A stretch of DNA of 64,000 bases from an uncultured bacterium (GTDB taxonomy: Bacteria > Krumholzibacteriota > Krumholzibacteriia > LZORAL124-64-63), in assembly GCA_903912525.1 (NCBI GenBank), contig CAIWHK010000025.1, positions 1 through 64,000 on the forward strand. Direction: 5' to 3'. Shown one piece after another: positions 8,234 through 46,640 of the stretch. A program made the translations under genes and the position numbers. Below the pieces are notes generated by a model. It was not told where the DNA came from and did no database searches. It was given only the letters and a program-made list of their open reading frames with translations. Each line of letters starts with the position of its first letter. Position 1 is the stretch's first letter.

Positions 8234-10147
8234 TCAGAAATCGCGGCCGACCGTCAATGTCAGCAGGCGGCCGGGCAGGGACACGCCCGGCACCTCCTGG
8301 CGTTCGCGGTCGAGCGCGTTGGTCAGGAGACCCTCGGCGAACCAGCCGCCCGGGCCGCTCCAGTCGGCGCGCAGGTCCAGGCTCGCCTGGTGGCGGAAGC
8401 CGTCGGGACCGCCGTCGTGGGCCAGGTACCTGAGCGCGGCGCCGCAGGCCACGGCCGGCGTCAGCACGAAGCGACCCTGCGCCGTGGCCACGCCACGCGG
8501 CGCAAGCAGCGCGTACTTGCCCTGGTAGCCGGGAAGGAGCGCCGTACTCGTTTCCAGCCACGTCCATGCGACCGCGGCGGCGTGGCCGCGCGCATGGCGC
8601 CAGCCGGCCTGGGTCTCGGCGCCGCGGACGGTGGCCTCGGCGACGTTCAGCACACGCCAGATCGCCTCGCCCTCACTGCGCGCCCACTCGATGCGGTCCT
8701 TCTCACGCCGCTCGAACCAGGTGGCCGACGCGAACCACGGCCCGTGGTCGAGCGCGAGCCCGCCGTCCCAGGTCCAGCCGCGCTCGGGGGCCAGGCCCGG
8801 ATTGCCCTGGTTGGCCGGGTCGACGTAGTAGAGGTCGGTGAAGGTCGGGACACGGAAGGCGCTGCCGACGCCGGCGTGCAGGACCAGGCCCGTGCGCACG
8901 CGATACGAGAAGGCCGCGCTGCCCGAGCCGTTCGCCGCGTAGCCGTCGCGACCGTCCACGCGCAGGCCGGCCTGCCAGAAAATGCGATCGCCGTGCCCGT
9001 CCAGCTCGGCGCTGGCGGCCGCCTGCCGCCGTGTGTGCGAGCCGAGCGCCGTCGCCGCCGCGCCGCCGCGCAGGCCGTGGCTGTCGATGTCCTCGTACGC
9101 GCCCTCGATGCCGACGGCGAGCGTGTGGCGCGGGCCCAGGTCGACCAGCCCCCGCAGTTCGGCGCCGACCCGCCGTGTCAGGTGGTCGTTGGCGTAGGAC
9201 GACGGCTGCTCGCGCCGCAGCCAGAAGCGGTCGCGATGCGTGCGCACCGACACGCGCGGCTCGATCGCGATGCCGTGTCCGAGGCTCCCCCGCGCGCGCG
9301 CCCAGCCCAGGAAGGTGCGCGTCGCCTCGAAGGAGGGAAACGGCGCGTAGAAGTCGCGCGCTCCGAACGCGCGATCGGCCAGGCCGGCGAAGGCGTCGAC
9401 GTCCCAGCCGCCCCAGCGGTCGGTGGTGCGGCAGGTCGCCGTGGTGGCCCGCGCGTCGGCGCCGGCCCACGCCTCGCCGCCGTCGGCCGTCGACTCGAAA
9501 TGTCCATCGGTGCCGAAGCGGCCCAGCGACAGGCGCGTGCGCCCGCCGTCGGCGCCGTGTGCGGCCAGGTCCAGGCTCCCGCGCGCGGCCCAGGTGCCGT
9601 CGCCGCCGCCGGTGAACGCCAGGCGCCCGCCGTCGCGGTCAGCGGGCTCACGCGTCACGACATTCAGGGTGCCCCCGAAGGCACCGGAGCCGTAGAGCGT
9701 CGAGCCATAGCCCGGCAGCACCTCCAGTCGCTCCACATCGGCGAAATCCAGCGGCAGGTCCAGAAGGTGGTGGCCGGTCTGCGGGTCGCCCGCCGCAACG
9801 CCGTCGATGAGCACCAGCACCTGGTCGAACGTCGAACCGCGGATGGTGAGGTCGCCCTGCACGCCGTACTGCTGCCGCTGGCCGACAATGACGCCCGGCA
9901 CCGCCTGCAACGCCTCGTTCACCGAGCGCGCGGGTGCCGTTGCCAGTTCCGCCGCCTCGACCACGCGCACCGGCCGGACCAGCCCCGGCAGCGCCGCCGG
10001 CACCCGTGAACCGACCACCTCGACCAGCGGCGCGACCAGCACCGTGTCGGCAGTAGTCGCCGCCGTCTGCGCCTGGGCGACCGCGACGCCCCAGACGGCG
10101 AGGGCCGCAATGATCACGGCGCGATGCCGCCGTCCACACCAATTCAT
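8234..10147 (-). CDS. TonB-dependent outer-membrane receptor (BtuB-like)
   Basis: Outer-membrane 22-strand gated channel of 637 residues. A signal peptide (about 1-27, cleaving after AVAQAQ) is followed by a plug domain (about 50-165; SVNEALQAVPGVIVGQR, DLTIRGSTFDQVLVLIDGV, VERLEVLPGYGSTLYGSGAFGG) and a beta-barrel ending in an aromatic residue (LTLTVGRDF), as outer-membrane insertion requires. The plug and small size match the BtuB/vitamin B12-type subfamily, but substrate cannot be assigned: no transporter is adjacent, and the 42-base upstream gap is too short for a cobalamin riboswitch. The ATG at 10147 is preferred because AGGAAGGGA sits at the correct distance; the frame is open to 10171. 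It follows the SpoIIE phosphatase gene closely and may be co-transcribed with it. Confidence 0.9.
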   Translation of the reverse strand: MNWCGRRHRAVIIAALAVWGVAVAQAQTAATTADTVLVAPLVEVVGSRVPAALPGLVRPVRVVEAAELATAPARSVNEALQAVPGVIVGQRQQYGVQGDLTIRGSTFDQVLVLIDGVAAGDPQTGHHLLDLPLDFADVERLEVLPGYGSTLYGSGAFGGTLNVVTREPADRDGGRLAFTGGGDGTWAARGSLDLAAHGADGGRTRLSLGRFGTDGHFESTADGGEAWAGADARATTATCRTTDRWGGWDVDAFAGLADRAFGARDFYAPFPSFEATRTFLGWARARGSLGHGIAIEPRVSVRTHRDRFWLRREQPSSYANDHLTRRVGAELRGLVDLGPRHTLAVGIEGAYEDIDSHGLRGGAAATALGSHTRRQAAASAELDGHGDRIFWQAGLRVDGRDGYAANGSGSAAFSYRVRTGLVLHAGVGSAFRVPTFTDLYYVDPANQGNPGLAPERGWTWDGGLALDHGPWFASATWFERREKDRIEWARSEGEAIWRVLNVAEATVRGAETQAGWRHARGHAAAVAWTWLETSTALLPGYQGKYALLAPRGVATAQGRFVLTPAVACGAALRYLAHDGGPDGFRHQASLDLRADWSGPGGWFAEGLLTNALDRERQEVPGVSLPGRLLTLTVGRDF

Positions 10148-41369: not shown

Positions 41370-43988
41370 CTACCGAACCAGCGACATGGGCACGACCTGG
41401 GTCGTCCCTGCCGACTCGAACCGCGCATAGTAGCAGCCCGACGGTACGCTCAACCCCGCGGCATCGCGGCCGTCCCACGAGACCTCGTACGTGCCGGCAG
41501 CATGGGGGCCGGCACGCAGCGTGCGCACCTGCCGCCCCATGACGTCATAAACGGCCAACCGCACCGCCTGGGCTGTCGGGAGGTCGAACCGCAATGTCGT
41601 GCGCGGATTGAACGGGTTCGGCGCGTTCGGATACAGGCGCAGCGCCGCCGGCGGAGTCCCCGCCACGCCGGAGGGCGAGCCGACCACGAGGCTGCCCGCC
41701 TGGTCGGGAGAATAGCCGTTGTTCGAGCCATCGAAGTCGCCGTATACCCACGACCCGCTATTGAACGAGTAGCGCCAGGCGTAGTCGTACGAGCCGGCCG
41801 CGGCCACCGTCAGGCGCGCCATGTATTCGTCGTTGTTTCCATGGTCGAGATTGAAGACGGCTGGTTGCCACTGCCACCCGGACGAATCCACTGTCGGGTC
41901 GACACCGTCGGGACCGTAGCCCAGTTGGGCAACGACGCCCTCTGCGGCACCGGTCGGATTCGTCACGCCGTCGATCCAGATCTGCCCGAACACGAGCTCG
42001 CTGGGGACCCCTGCCATCGCATTCAGCGTCGGCGGCCACTGCAGGTTGCACCAGCCGACCGGAGGCACCACGTGCACCACCTGCTGCGTCTCGGCCACCG
42101 CGCCACGGTCATCGGTGACGCGCAACCGCAGCGGGAAGTCCAGCATGCCCTGCCCGAACACGTACGGCGGCATCAGTTCACAGCCAACTCCCGCGCCTGA
42201 CGCCGTCTCCGAATCGCCCCAGAACCACTCGTAGGCGACGATGGGGTGCCGTGGATCCGGGTGCGTCGAGCAGGCAGCGTCCACCGTCACGAACGAGCCG
42301 GGCGGCACCTGCGTCCTGTCCAGCGTGAAGCACGGCGACGGGTTGCGGTCATAGACCGTCAGGGAACTCTTCGCCCAGGCCGAGAGCTGAGTGGAGATGT
42401 CGATGGTCCGCACGTGGATTTCGGCCGCCTGGCCCCGCGGGAGCGGCGGGTCCAGGGCTGCGAGAGTGAGCCACGAAACCGTCGGCGTCAGCCCTTGGGC
42501 ATCTGCGGCACCATCGCCGTTCAGGTCCCACTCGGCGGTCACGGCACCCGCGCCCGGGCCGGCCCCGGCCCCCTCGAGCACCAGGTCATCACCGGTGTTG
42601 ATCACGTAGGGTCCTCCGGCGTCGGCGGACGGAGCCCGGCCTGTGCCGAGCGACCGCGCGAAGATATTGAAATTCGTGAACGCGACGATGGCGCCGCCCC
42701 CGCCGTCGGCGACGATGCTGCCGCCGATGCCGGGCGCGAAGTTGGTCGCCACGCGCACCCCCGGCACGCCCCACTGCCTGATTCCCACGCCGCTCACCCA
42801 CTGTGCGTAGAAGTCGTCGACCCCCATGAGCGAACTGTACCACGAGAAGATCGCCCCACCGGTGCCGTCCGAGGCCAACATCAGGTTGTTCCGGTTGGCG
42901 CCGTCGTCGTGCAACATCAGTCCGTTCGGCGCCCACAGGGTGTTGCCGGTAATGCCCAACCGCTGGCAGTAGACGTCCGTTGGCCCTCGCCGCAGGTCCC
43001 GCCACATGAGCACCGCGCCCCCCGCACCGTCGGGCACCACGGCGTCGACCCACTGGTCGGACGCGGCATCGCAGACAACCATCCCAGAGGGGGCCCACCG
43101 GCGGATCCCGTCCGCAGTGACGCTCTGCGCGTAGATATCGACCGTCCCGTTGCGCGTGTCGTGCCAGACGATGATGGCCCCGTCCGCCCCGTCGCTGGCG
43201 ATCATCGGATAGTCCTGGGCCGCAGAATCCATGCAAATGGGCAGGCCGCCGGCTCCCCACCGGCGCGCCCCGTTCCCGGCGATGGATTGGGCATAGATGT
43301 CGCGGGTGCCGGACCATGCGTCGTACCAGGTGATGATGGCACCACCGGTGCCGTCGGCAATGATCTGAGGCGCCGCCTGATCCCCTGGCGTCGCGCAGAC
43401 AGCCACGCCGTCGGCGGCCCACAAGACCGTCCCTGCCCCATCGATCCGCTGGGCATAGATGTCACGAGTGCCGTTGCGGTCGTCACTCCACATGGCGATG
43501 GCGCCGCCGAAACCGTCGGCTACGATCTTGACCGTCCACTGGTTGGCGGCCGCGGTGCACAGCGCGACTCCATTGTGGGCCCACTGGACCACGCCCGCGG
43601 CATTGACCCTCTGGACGTAGATATCGCGCTCGGGGAGACGCTGGTCGATCCAGGCCACGATGGCTCCACCCGCGCCGTCGGAGGCGATCGCTGGATACAA
43701 CTGCAAGCCCGGCGCCGTGCAGAGCGGGACGCCATCGGCTGTCCACGTCGTCACGCCCCAGTTGTCCACCTTCTGTGCGTAGATGTCGTGGCGCACGGGG
43801 TAGCTGCGGTCGTCGTCCCAGGCGACGATGGCGCCGCCGGCGCCGTCGGGCGCGGCGACGGGATACTCCTGGGCCTGGATGGCCGAGCAAATCGTCACGA
43901 TGTTGTCGCCCCACCACGCCTGGGTTGGCGACACGCCGGCCATGCAGAGGCCGAAGGCCAGCATCGTCGTCTTCAGCACGGACTTCAT
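41370..43988 (-). CDS. Exported repeat protein with PKD-like domains and FlgD-like sorting module
   Basis: 872 residues with signal peptide (about 1-24). Seven full and one partial repeat of about 53 residues follow (about 40-430), each with a GGAIVAWxDxR...DIYAQR...G...W...G..C pattern, compatible with a beta-propeller. Residues about 445-510 look like a PKD domain (ADAGGPYVINTGDDLVLEG), with a second one at about 545-620. A C-terminal FlgD-like module closes it (APNPFNPRTTLRFDL, VRLAVYDVMGRQVRTL, VSWDGRDAAG, ending MSLVR). ATG at 43988 is preceded by AAAGG; the open frame upstream to 44141 covers the untranslated leader. It shares a leader element and promoter layout with the gene at 44147-46411. 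Confidence 0.88.
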   Translation of the reverse strand: MKSVLKTTMLAFGLCMAGVSPTQAWWGDNIVTICSAIQAQEYPVAAPDGAGGAIVAWDDDRSYPVRHDIYAQKVDNWGVTTWTADGVPLCTAPGLQLYPAIASDGAGGAIVAWIDQRLPERDIYVQRVNAAGVVQWAHNGVALCTAAANQWTVKIVADGFGGAIAMWSDDRNGTRDIYAQRIDGAGTVLWAADGVAVCATPGDQAAPQIIADGTGGAIITWYDAWSGTRDIYAQSIAGNGARRWGAGGLPICMDSAAQDYPMIASDGADGAIIVWHDTRNGTVDIYAQSVTADGIRRWAPSGMVVCDAASDQWVDAVVPDGAGGAVLMWRDLRRGPTDVYCQRLGITGNTLWAPNGLMLHDDGANRNNLMLASDGTGGAIFSWYSSLMGVDDFYAQWVSGVGIRQWGVPGVRVATNFAPGIGGSIVADGGGGAIVAFTNFNIFARSLGTGRAPSADAGGPYVINTGDDLVLEGAGAGPGAGAVTAEWDLNGDGAADAQGLTPTVSWLTLAALDPPLPRGQAAEIHVRTIDISTQLSAWAKSSLTVYDRNPSPCFTLDRTQVPPGSFVTVDAACSTHPDPRHPIVAYEWFWGDSETASGAGVGCELMPPYVFGQGMLDFPLRLRVTDDRGAVAETQQVVHVVPPVGWCNLQWPPTLNAMAGVPSELVFGQIWIDGVTNPTGAAEGVVAQLGYGPDGVDPTVDSSGWQWQPAVFNLDHGNNDEYMARLTVAAAGSYDYAWRYSFNSGSWVYGDFDGSNNGYSPDQAGSLVVGSPSGVAGTPPAALRLYPNAPNPFNPRTTLRFDLPTAQAVRLAVYDVMGRQVRTLRAGPHAAGTYEVSWDGRDAAGLSVPSGCYYARFESAGTTQVVPMSLVR

Positions 43989-44077
43989 GGTCAGGCCTTT
44001 CTGCGAATCCCGCGAAAGTGCCGAACATGACGTGCGGCTACTTCCGCAAGGAACAGGACCGAGCAGGCGCCGCCCTC

Positions 44078-44137
44078 TGTCCCTCCGAGAAACCCCGTCG
44101 GCCTTGCGCCCGCTGCGTTTGCCGTGCGGCGAGAATA
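44078..44137 (-). promoter_or_regulatory. Promoter and conserved leader element, copy 1
   Basis: On the minus strand a -10-like TATTCT (44132-44137) is followed 20 bases later by a 34-base core (44078-44111) beginning GGGCGCAAGGCCGACGG. The same core with five mismatches and no gaps precedes the next secreted-protein gene at 46498-46531, with a matching TATGCT box. Distance from core to start codon is 89 bases here and 86 there. Upstream of the core, GGCAAACGCAG gives a faint resemblance to cyclic-di-GMP-I aptamers, but the second helix is missing, so I do not make that call. Confidence 0.55.
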
Positions 44138-44146
44138 GCACACCGC

Positions 44147-46411
44147 TCAGCGGAGCATCACGAGGCGAGAGGTGCGGACCTCAGCCCCTGTCGACAGCCG
44201 CAGCAGGTACAGGCCGGCGGCGACCCTCCGGCCGCTCTCGTCGCGACCGTCCCAGGGCAGCGTGCGCTCCCCGGCGGGCAACCGGCCGGCGACCAGGCGT
44301 CGCACGAGGCGGCCGGCCGGATCGTAGATCTCCAGACGGGCCTCCCCCTCGCGTGCCAGCGCGAAACGGATACTCGCCGATGATTGCGTGGGGTTCGGCC
44401 AGGCGCGGAGGCCGTGGCTCATCACCGCCCCGTCCGGATCATCGCCCACCCCGGTCATCGAACCGAGGCAGAACTCGTAGACGCGGTTCGCACCGGCGTC
44501 CGCGACCCACAGCCGGCGGTTGGCCGCGTCGATCTCGATGCCGCAATACGCCAGGCCGGTGAAGCCGGCGGCGACGAGTTCGACGTGTCCGGTCGTCGGA
44601 TGGATGCGATTGAGCGTCTGGCGGACCTGTTCGAGGACATAGATCCGGTCCGTCTGGTCGTCGTAGACGATCCCCACCATGCCCGTCAGCGGTGTGTCGA
44701 GCGTCAGCGTCGCCAGCGAGCCGTCCGGCGAGAGAACGGCCACGGAGGTCGAGTCGACGGTGCCGGCCAGGTAGACCGATCCGGGCCGCCCCGCGGCGAT
44801 GTCGCGATAGTCCCGGTCGCCGGGATCGGGCATGACCAGCCGCTCGTTCTCCGCCGCGCCGGCCTTGAAGGCCCAGACTTCGTCCGGTCCCAGGTAACCG
44901 AAGTCCGTGACCAGGATGTCACCCGGGTCCACGTTGGGGCCGTCGAAGCCGGCCGGAGCGAAGCACAGGCCGCCCGGATCGTCGTCCCCCGTGTGGAAGC
45001 CGGAGACCCAGAGCGTCGAGCTACCCGCCGCGGCGCGTCGATACACGTTGCCGCTGTTGTCCTCGGTGACGAACGCATTGCCCGCACTGTCGTAGATCAG
45101 GTGGGCAGGCAGATCGTAGGCCTGAAGACGCGTGCCCGCGGCGCCACCTTCGACGGCCCAGAGCCCGCCCCCCGAACCCGAGGCCAGGTCGACGGTACCG
45201 TAGAGCAGGCCATCCAGCGGGTTGCGCGCCACCGTGGAGATCCCCACGAAACCGAGGCGGCCGCACGGTGTCACGCCCGGCGCATGCACCGTGACCGGCA
45301 TGTCCATCGGCGCGCACCCGGCGGACAGGCGCCCGAAGTTGTCGAAGCCGATGACCTCCGTGCCGTTGATGAACTCCACCTGGATGCGGCATTCGGTCAC
45401 GTTCGCCAGCAAGGCCGCCCAGGTGCCCGCGGTCACGGTCCACGTCGCCGCCTGCAATGGGAAGTCGTAGGTCTTCCAGACCCGGCCGACGACCGGCAGG
45501 GCGGCCGCGGGCATGGCGACGACGGCCGTTCCGCCCGGGCCCGACAATCGGATGAACTCGGGGATGTCGACCGCGGTCCCGCCTTGGCTGGGGATGCGGA
45601 TGTCGATGGCGAGCGAGCCGGAGCCGTTCAGCGCAGACCAGTCGCCCAGGTAGCGCGGCGGAGCGAAGGCGTAGGACGTGCCCGTCCCATCGTTGACCTG
45701 GCAGAAGCCGCCGGCGTTTCCCCCGCTGCCCGGGTTCGAAACCCCGCCCGTGCTCATGAACGACCAGTCCGCGAGGCCCGCCGGTGTGAACGTCTCCGTG
45801 ACGCACGCCTCGAACACGTGGATCACGTTGCCGGTCAGGCGGATGTTGTCGAGACGGACGACTTCCCCGCCGTCGACGAACTCGCCCGCGATGGTGAGTG
45901 AATTGACGTGCGCCAGCAGCCCGTTCCAGGTGCCGCTTTCCATGATCCAGTCGGCGGCCGACAAGCTGATCCTCAGGGTCGTCCACGCCAACTGCGGCGG
46001 CACGTAACCCAAGACGGCGTGCGCGGCGCCGCCGGGGCCGGCGATGCGGAAGACGTGCGCCGGCGCAAGGACTGCGCCACCGCTCGTGTTCTGCAGGTAG
46101 TAGTCCAGGCTGATCGAGTCGGCGGCCGTCATGGCGCTCCAGTCACCGAGGTAGGCTGGCGGCGCGATGGCTCGGTTGTCCTCGCCGGTGGCGAGGTCGT
46201 TCACCGACAGGCAACCACCGGGGTGGCCTCCCGTGGCGTTCCAGGCGGCGGCGTTGTCGCCGGTGACGCGCCACCCCTCGAGTCCGGAATCGAAAGCGGT
46301 CACGACCGCCGAGGAGGCGCTGGGCGCCAGGCCGAGGCTGCCCAGGACGGCGACCAGGCCGCCGAACGCACCCGCCCAGCGGCGCCAGGGGAAGAGTTGA
46401 TAGCGCTGCAT
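44147..46411 (-). CDS. Exported protein with duplicated carbohydrate-binding-like domains, propeller and sorting module
   Basis: 754 residues with a signal peptide (about 1-34). Two related domains of about 165 residues follow (about 36-195 and 205-365), each with a D.GLEGW/PAGLADWSF opening, PPxYLGDWSAxx and a closing VRLDNIRL/IGFDNFGRL phrase; these resemble Laminin-B/CBM-type beta-sandwiches. Residues about 385-660 look like an SMP-30/NHL-type propeller (GNAFVTEDNSGNVYRR, NRRLWVADAGANRVYEF). The end is a diverged FlgD-like module (WPNPTQSSASIRFAL, LPWDGRDESG, ending VMLR) in which the usual Phe-Asn-Pro is lost. ATG at 46411 has GGAGG seven bases upstream. Shares its leader with the gene at 41370-43988. 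Confidence 0.88.
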   Translation of the reverse strand: MQRYQLFPWRRWAGAFGGLVAVLGSLGLAPSASSAVVTAFDSGLEGWRVTGDNAAAWNATGGHPGGCLSVNDLATGEDNRAIAPPAYLGDWSAMTAADSISLDYYLQNTSGGAVLAPAHVFRIAGPGGAAHAVLGYVPPQLAWTTLRISLSAADWIMESGTWNGLLAHVNSLTIAGEFVDGGEVVRLDNIRLTGNVIHVFEACVTETFTPAGLADWSFMSTGGVSNPGSGGNAGGFCQVNDGTGTSYAFAPPRYLGDWSALNGSGSLAIDIRIPSQGGTAVDIPEFIRLSGPGGTAVVAMPAAALPVVGRVWKTYDFPLQAATWTVTAGTWAALLANVTECRIQVEFINGTEVIGFDNFGRLSAGCAPMDMPVTVHAPGVTPCGRLGFVGISTVARNPLDGLLYGTVDLASGSGGGLWAVEGGAAGTRLQAYDLPAHLIYDSAGNAFVTEDNSGNVYRRAAAGSSTLWVSGFHTGDDDPGGLCFAPAGFDGPNVDPGDILVTDFGYLGPDEVWAFKAGAAENERLVMPDPGDRDYRDIAAGRPGSVYLAGTVDSTSVAVLSPDGSLATLTLDTPLTGMVGIVYDDQTDRIYVLEQVRQTLNRIHPTTGHVELVAAGFTGLAYCGIEIDAANRRLWVADAGANRVYEFCLGSMTGVGDDPDGAVMSHGLRAWPNPTQSSASIRFALAREGEARLEIYDPAGRLVRRLVAGRLPAGERTLPWDGRDESGRRVAAGLYLLRLSTGAEVRTSRLVMLR

Positions 46412-46497
46412 GGCGCACCTCCAAAGGGAGAGCTCCGGGTGGCCACGGGGGAGGAGGAGCGGAGCGCAGGGATAGTACCAACGCCCTTTACCCCGCT

Positions 46498-46559
46498 TGT
46501 CTCTCGCAGGAACTCCGTCGGCCTTGCGCCCCGTTGCTGTTAGCGGCGAGCGGAGCATA
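46498..46559 (-). promoter_or_regulatory. Promoter and conserved leader element, copy 2
   Basis: The -10-like TATGCT lies at 46554-46559 and the 34-base core at 46498-46531 on the minus strand. The core matches copy 1 at 29 of 34 positions, without gaps. Predicted transcripts of both genes would begin about 136-137 bases before the start codon. Either a protein-binding operator or an RNA regulatory element is possible. Confidence 0.55.
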
Positions 46560-46577
46560 GCATGCCCCGATGCTCGA

Positions 46578-46640
46578 ATTTCTCTTTTTTCACCCGCCCG
46601 GCGATCACGCCGCGGCCACCCGCCATTTGTGACACGCCCC
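46578..46640 (+). repeat. Dispersed 60-base repeat, copy 1
   Basis: Begins ATTTCTC and ends GTGACACGCCCC. The right 38 bases match copy 2 (49732-49791) at about 84% with no gaps; the left part aligns with a three-base length difference. Both copies face the same way. Confidence 0.7.

Follow-up and report, generated by a model that had tools for sequence, protein, structure and literature searches.

Elements of the IS3 family usually have two reading frames. Outward promoters are known inside insertion sequences (ISs) and inside MITEs (PMC9330008; PMC6382973), and thus IS ends could drive neighboring genes. The locus considered here lies in a 64,000-nucleotide stretch of contig CAIWHK010000025.1 (the window) from an uncultured member of the Krumholzibacteriota, in which the genes of two exported proteins are preceded by a similar sequence. 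From the letters of the window, a sequence-only reading had proposed an undescribed regulatory element, perhaps an RNA, of a sorted-protein regulon. The analysis presented here leads to a different identity: the shared leader sequence is very probably the worn end of a widespread IS and not a new regulatory RNA.

The similarity itself was readily reproduced. The 34-base ungapped match with 29 identities was found again (44111–44078 and 46531–46498, both on the minus strand), as were the distances of 89 and 86 bases to the start codons at 43988 and 46411 and the boxes TGC-TATTCT (44140–44132) and TGC-TATGCT (46562–46554). Both starts are backed by codon scoring. The match is not due to chance since none of 2,000 first-order shuffles of both leaders reached 29 matches (maximum 24). 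The conserved stretch exceeds the 34 bases, with approximately 45 more on the gene-distal side that the sequence-only reading had omitted. Copy 1 directs its terminus at the gene starting at 43988 and copy 2 at the gene starting at 46411 (Table 1). The stop of the latter gene (46411–44147) directly precedes copy 1, so that this gene fills the space between the copies, and the range first given for the shared element (44078–46559) encloses it entirely. The FlgD-like module said to be common to the two proteins was also recovered as a C-terminal FlgD_ig / type-IX-like sorting module in each. The DNA of these modules (C-terminal parts, window 41370–46411) has dozens of matching loci in the related genomes searched, which form a large paralogous set. 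A search of the sister species for orthologous copies found the region without conservation, the protein modules excepted.

Table 1. Coordinates of the two copies, their parts and the adjoining genes in the window.
Feature	Position	Strand	Remark
Gene downstream of copy 1	41370..43988	-	872-aa exported protein, C-terminal FlgD_ig domain
Gene downstream of copy 2	44147..46411	-	754-aa exported protein, C-terminal FlgD_ig / type IX sorting-like domain
Copy 1	44076..44145	-	Decayed transposase-proximal IS end (terminal inverted repeat and transposase promoter)
Copy 2	46496..46578	-	IS end of the same kind with remnant of transposase start
Copy 1, terminal inverted repeat	44076..44106	-	Core CAAGGCCGACGGGGTTTCTCGGAGGGACAGA
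Copy 2, terminal inverted repeat	46496..46526	-	Core CAAGGCCGACGGAGTTCCTGCGAGAGACAAG
Copy 1, candidate outward extended -10	44132..44140	-	TGCTATTCT
Copy 2, candidate outward extended -10	46554..46562	-	TGCTATGCT
Copy 2, transposase-start remnant	46570..46581	+	ATG CTC GAA TTT, read from sequence

A strict pattern for the core returned two copies in the same genome, namely the window pair, and three in the sister species. This narrow pattern made the core look falsely rare, and models built from sequence without structure were needed. The first model (R1), built from five copies of the genus, identified further copies across the family. The second (R2), built from 21 copies, had hits in 30 of the 80 genomes searched from the phylum (5 in the genome of the window, 20 in G021 and 12 in G060), and the third (R3), comprising the core only, located up to 31 per genome on both strands with frequent outward-facing pairs. 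The similarity among copies reaches 420 or more bases in the gene-distal direction and mostly ends no more than about 2 bases from the limit of the core. Such an extent, outward from the gene and bounded by the core, shows that a repeated element occupies the far side and that the core is its terminus. Two other ideas, a two-ended gene cassette and long-range pairing between mRNA ends, were dropped because of this outward extension. Some outward-facing core pairs are short (76–550 bp) and MITE-like. These pairs, found at loci L061, L063, L172–L174 and L123, are sometimes tandem or nested and crowd accessory-gene arrays and contig ends. In contig C3 of the window's own genome (L071:5500-9220), a run of exported-protein genes has several core-bearing sites between them, including a 76-bp pair at 9142-9217.

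Intact copies of the element exist. They are approximately 1,283 bp long, and their outward-facing core pairs, 1,275–1,285 bases apart, flank a 338-codon DDE transposase of the rve_3 type. As the core is inverted at both ends with a transposase between, it is the terminal inverted repeat of the element, and the copies are homologous to one another. Intact or near-intact examples are found at L065, L091 and L136, and examples with internal breaks at L067, L174 and L187. Among the matches of the R1 model was an intact element, hit at its promoter end (G021:C81:1484-1549, E = 1.5e-7), whose transposase occupies positions 481-1494. The transposase scored 50.1 bits against Pfam rve_3, over the cut-off of 26.5. 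The best NCBIfam models were below their cut-offs (IS3, 94.6 versus 160; IS481, 83.3 versus 224), and the IS21 model gave 24.9 bits against a cut-off of 160. With curated family cut-offs not reached, the element was not filed under any named IS family; public records name relatives of the transposase only as "integrase core domain-containing protein".

An independent set of 80 loci was retrieved from a separate collection by the transposase protein alone, mostly from other phyla (Planctomycetota, Acidobacteria, Myxococcota and Proteobacteria). The core was present in an outward-facing orientation 5' of the transposase in 37 of the 80 loci (70–193 bases away) and 3' of the transposase, also in 37 (149–264 bases away). 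Both ends carried the core in 25 loci and none of the 80 had it in the wrong orientation. Most of these cores lie beyond the loci taken as Krumholzibacteriota (30 of the 37 at the 5' side and 32 of the 37 at the 3' side). When the window was scored with a matrix from which its own genus had been left out, copy 1 (20.0) and copy 2 (18.3) ranked first and second, against 9.9 for the best site that is not part of an element.

The anatomy of the intact end accounts for the appearance of a leader. Read on the transposase strand, the inverted repeat CCTGTGCCTACC-ATTTA-TTCCGTCCG is followed by the promoter TTGCGG, 17 bases and TAGCAT, and then by the start GGATGTTCAAAATC (spacing read from the sequence). 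In its general form, the transposase promoter has a -35 box TTGCRS, 17 bases and a -10 box TAGCAT. Read toward the neighboring gene, the same end presents boxes resembling TTTTGAACATCC, TATGCTATACTC, GTAACCGCAAC and CAAGGCGGACGG, and the upstream one, TTTTGAACATCC, corresponds in reverse complement to the transposase start (GG ATG TTC AAA A). The "-10" noticed earlier is likewise the transposase promoter seen from the other strand: judged by the intact elements, the reverse complement of TGCTATTCT contains its -10, and AGCATAGCA, the reverse complement of TGCTATGCT, contains TAGCAT. The spacing from "-10" to core is constant because both belong to one IS end read backwards, and the promoter-proximal look of the leader comes from its being the transposase promoter, which lies on the opposite strand. 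The amino terminal codons of the transposase persist in copies of the genus, as MLKIIL at L060 and L073 (both of the sister species) and as MLEF in copy 2, compared to MLNIIL in the intact one; intact relatives begin ATG CTC AAC ATC or ATG TTC AAA ATC. At L060 (positions 5278, 6873 and 7296), three transposase-proximal ends lie in one direction within 2.1 kb, each before a different gene, which is the layout of the two window copies. An array of about eight units of a 13-base direct repeat CCTGGCGCAAGAA immediately adjoins an IS end on its far side (L060:5154-5284).

From these observations, a history of the locus may be proposed. An IS of approximately 1.28 kb, now distributed across the phylum and well outside it, has the 31-base core as the terminal inverted repeat where its transposase would cut. 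The conserved stretch on the inner side of the core is the transposase promoter reading away from the exported genes, followed by the start codon. In the window the remainder of the element has disappeared, leaving two worn ends slightly less than 90 bases before the two genes. Each copy probably arose by insertion and decay at its own place and not by duplication of a leader that was already marked. A partner end is absent for each copy, with no second site above background; thus the insertion itself is not seen, and the copies are single-end relics and not MITEs in the strict sense. No target-site duplication was recognized at 59 element candidates (no repeat over 4 bases), although old copies could have lost such repeats. 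In the genome of the window, no element bearing exactly this inverted repeat was found intact. Taken together, these two results indicate that the copies in the window are old relics. The one intact relative of the transposase in this genome (L198, G000:C46:47137-48153) is 59% identical and is without the core at its ends, suggesting a transposase subgroup with other terminal repeats. Of the two options first offered for the shared sequence, separate selection or recent copying, it is the copying that holds, in the form of a mobile-element end.

A cis-acting RNA leader, either a riboswitch or a protein-binding RNA of a sorted exported-protein regulon, would fit a conserved sequence at a fixed distance past a -10-like box and the signal-peptide genes downstream of many copies. 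As the primary identity of the core, it is refuted by the way in which cores flank transposase genes as inverted repeats: the copies are the ends of intact ISs and occur on both strands. A search of the element against Rfam gave nothing up to E = 10 at gathering and lax thresholds, RNAalifold detected no common fold among the copies and single-sequence folds were no better than shuffles. Covariation did not exceed that of shuffles; the compensatory changes hoped for amounted to one cell for the best stem (CCGC/GCGG), a result equaled by 82 of 500 shuffles. Nor did the suggested flavor of a cyclic-di-GMP-I aptamer survive, as the RF01051 covariance model had no match and none over cut-off in 58 relatives. 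The expectation that a scan would reveal more copies was borne out; the link to exported genes was not. The neighbors are varied and include an ankyrin-repeat protein, an ABC-transporter operon, a cysteine synthase, a serpin, an AAA ATPase and a glycosylase-like protein, most of these names being read from translations. By a crude hydrophobicity test, exported genes were 25 of the 48 that transposase-proximal ends face, 28 of the 50 at opposite ends and 144 of all 348 called genes, which is not a specific enrichment. An RNA leader is therefore scarcely credible.

An equally improbable identity for the core is an attC-like site at which the gene cassettes of an integron-type system would recombine. 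This idea was prompted by palindromic spacers and GTTAGAT-like letters. In its favor, array genes have inward-facing cores on either side, the sites between genes form imperfect palindromes and many genomes of the phylum (39 of 78) encode integron integrases. The core was nevertheless present in none of 20 integron-integrase loci, where attC would be expected in integrase-linked arrays with RYYYAAC/GTTRRRY boxes, and this eliminated attC as a candidate; classical attC-looking repeats ending in GTTAGGC lie near one integrase locus (L153) and a transposase sits between the cores. Integron integrases over the curated cut-off include one in the genome of the window (G000:C26:18783-19721) and are often near contig ends.

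With the core understood as an IS end, its orientation toward genes deserves separate consideration. The transposase-proximal ends are biased 48:14 toward facing gene starts (binomial p = 1.7e-5), while opposite ends are split 50:50 (Fisher p = 5e-4 for the difference). It would seem that these ends have been kept pointing at gene starts more often than chance, a bias that mere decay of an IS relic does not account for and that makes a promoter role possible. An outward TGnTAnnnT is present in 43 of 53 transposase-proximal ends compared to 4% of 100-base windows, and IS ends may, judging from sequence, act as outward promoters. It is conceivable, though somewhat doubtful, that ends have been co-opted in addition to their IS origin, an outward extended -10 driving the neighboring gene with copies kept there as a result. 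The facing bias, the outward motif and the documented promoters of other ISs and MITEs (PMC9330008; PMC6382973) agree with co-option. On the other side, the -10 is inherited along with the transposase promoter of the opposite strand, so that finding it does not show that it is used, and a consensus scan identified no sigma-70 promoter in either leader of the window. The copies in the 48:14 count are not independent (many are from G021) and the gene calls are crude. Furthermore, the bias is alike with an adjacent transposase (14:5) and without one (34:9), and avoidance of read-through into the transposase would yield a similar bias. An unlikely extension is that, in the Krumholzibacteriota, the end serves as a portable promoter that points outward and brings along a fixed leader of about 50 bases, repeatedly retained before accessory and surface-protein genes after loss of the element. 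If so, a dispersed set of genes would share one IS-derived promoter.

Once the IS end is recognized, what looked like a new riboswitch or regulon proves to be a false lead, and a trap becomes visible. A mobile-element end beside a gene mimics a promoter followed by a conserved leader, since the transposase promoter is read back over that end. A transposase group of many phyla is also brought to notice, with the clear inverted-repeat signature CCTGTSCCTACC-N5-TTCCRTCCG, and whether IS ends act as promoters can be put to the test here in a phylum without cultivated members.

Compared to known systems, the resemblance of copy 1 to the c-di-GMP-I (GEMM) riboswitch (RF01051) is a loose one confined to GGCAAAC...GCAAGGCC; the covariance model does not match and the letters belong to the inverted repeat and transposase promoter. 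MITEs with outward promoters, such as MITEAba12 (PMC6382973), are likewise short, non-autonomous copies in spacers that share their inverted repeats with a resident IS, and candidate outward promoters are present here too. In contrast to MITEAba12, the lengths of the copies described here vary (76–550 bp), many are single worn ends and the promoters are candidates from sequence. With respect to the IS3 / IS481 superfamily, the element scores under the NCBIfam cut-offs, lacks a recognized target-site duplication at the 59 candidates and, unlike IS3, has one reading frame. It nonetheless shares with this superfamily a length of approximately 1.28 kb, a single transposase gene that fills most of the element, terminal inverted repeats and a DDE integrase core (rve_3 over the Pfam cut-off).
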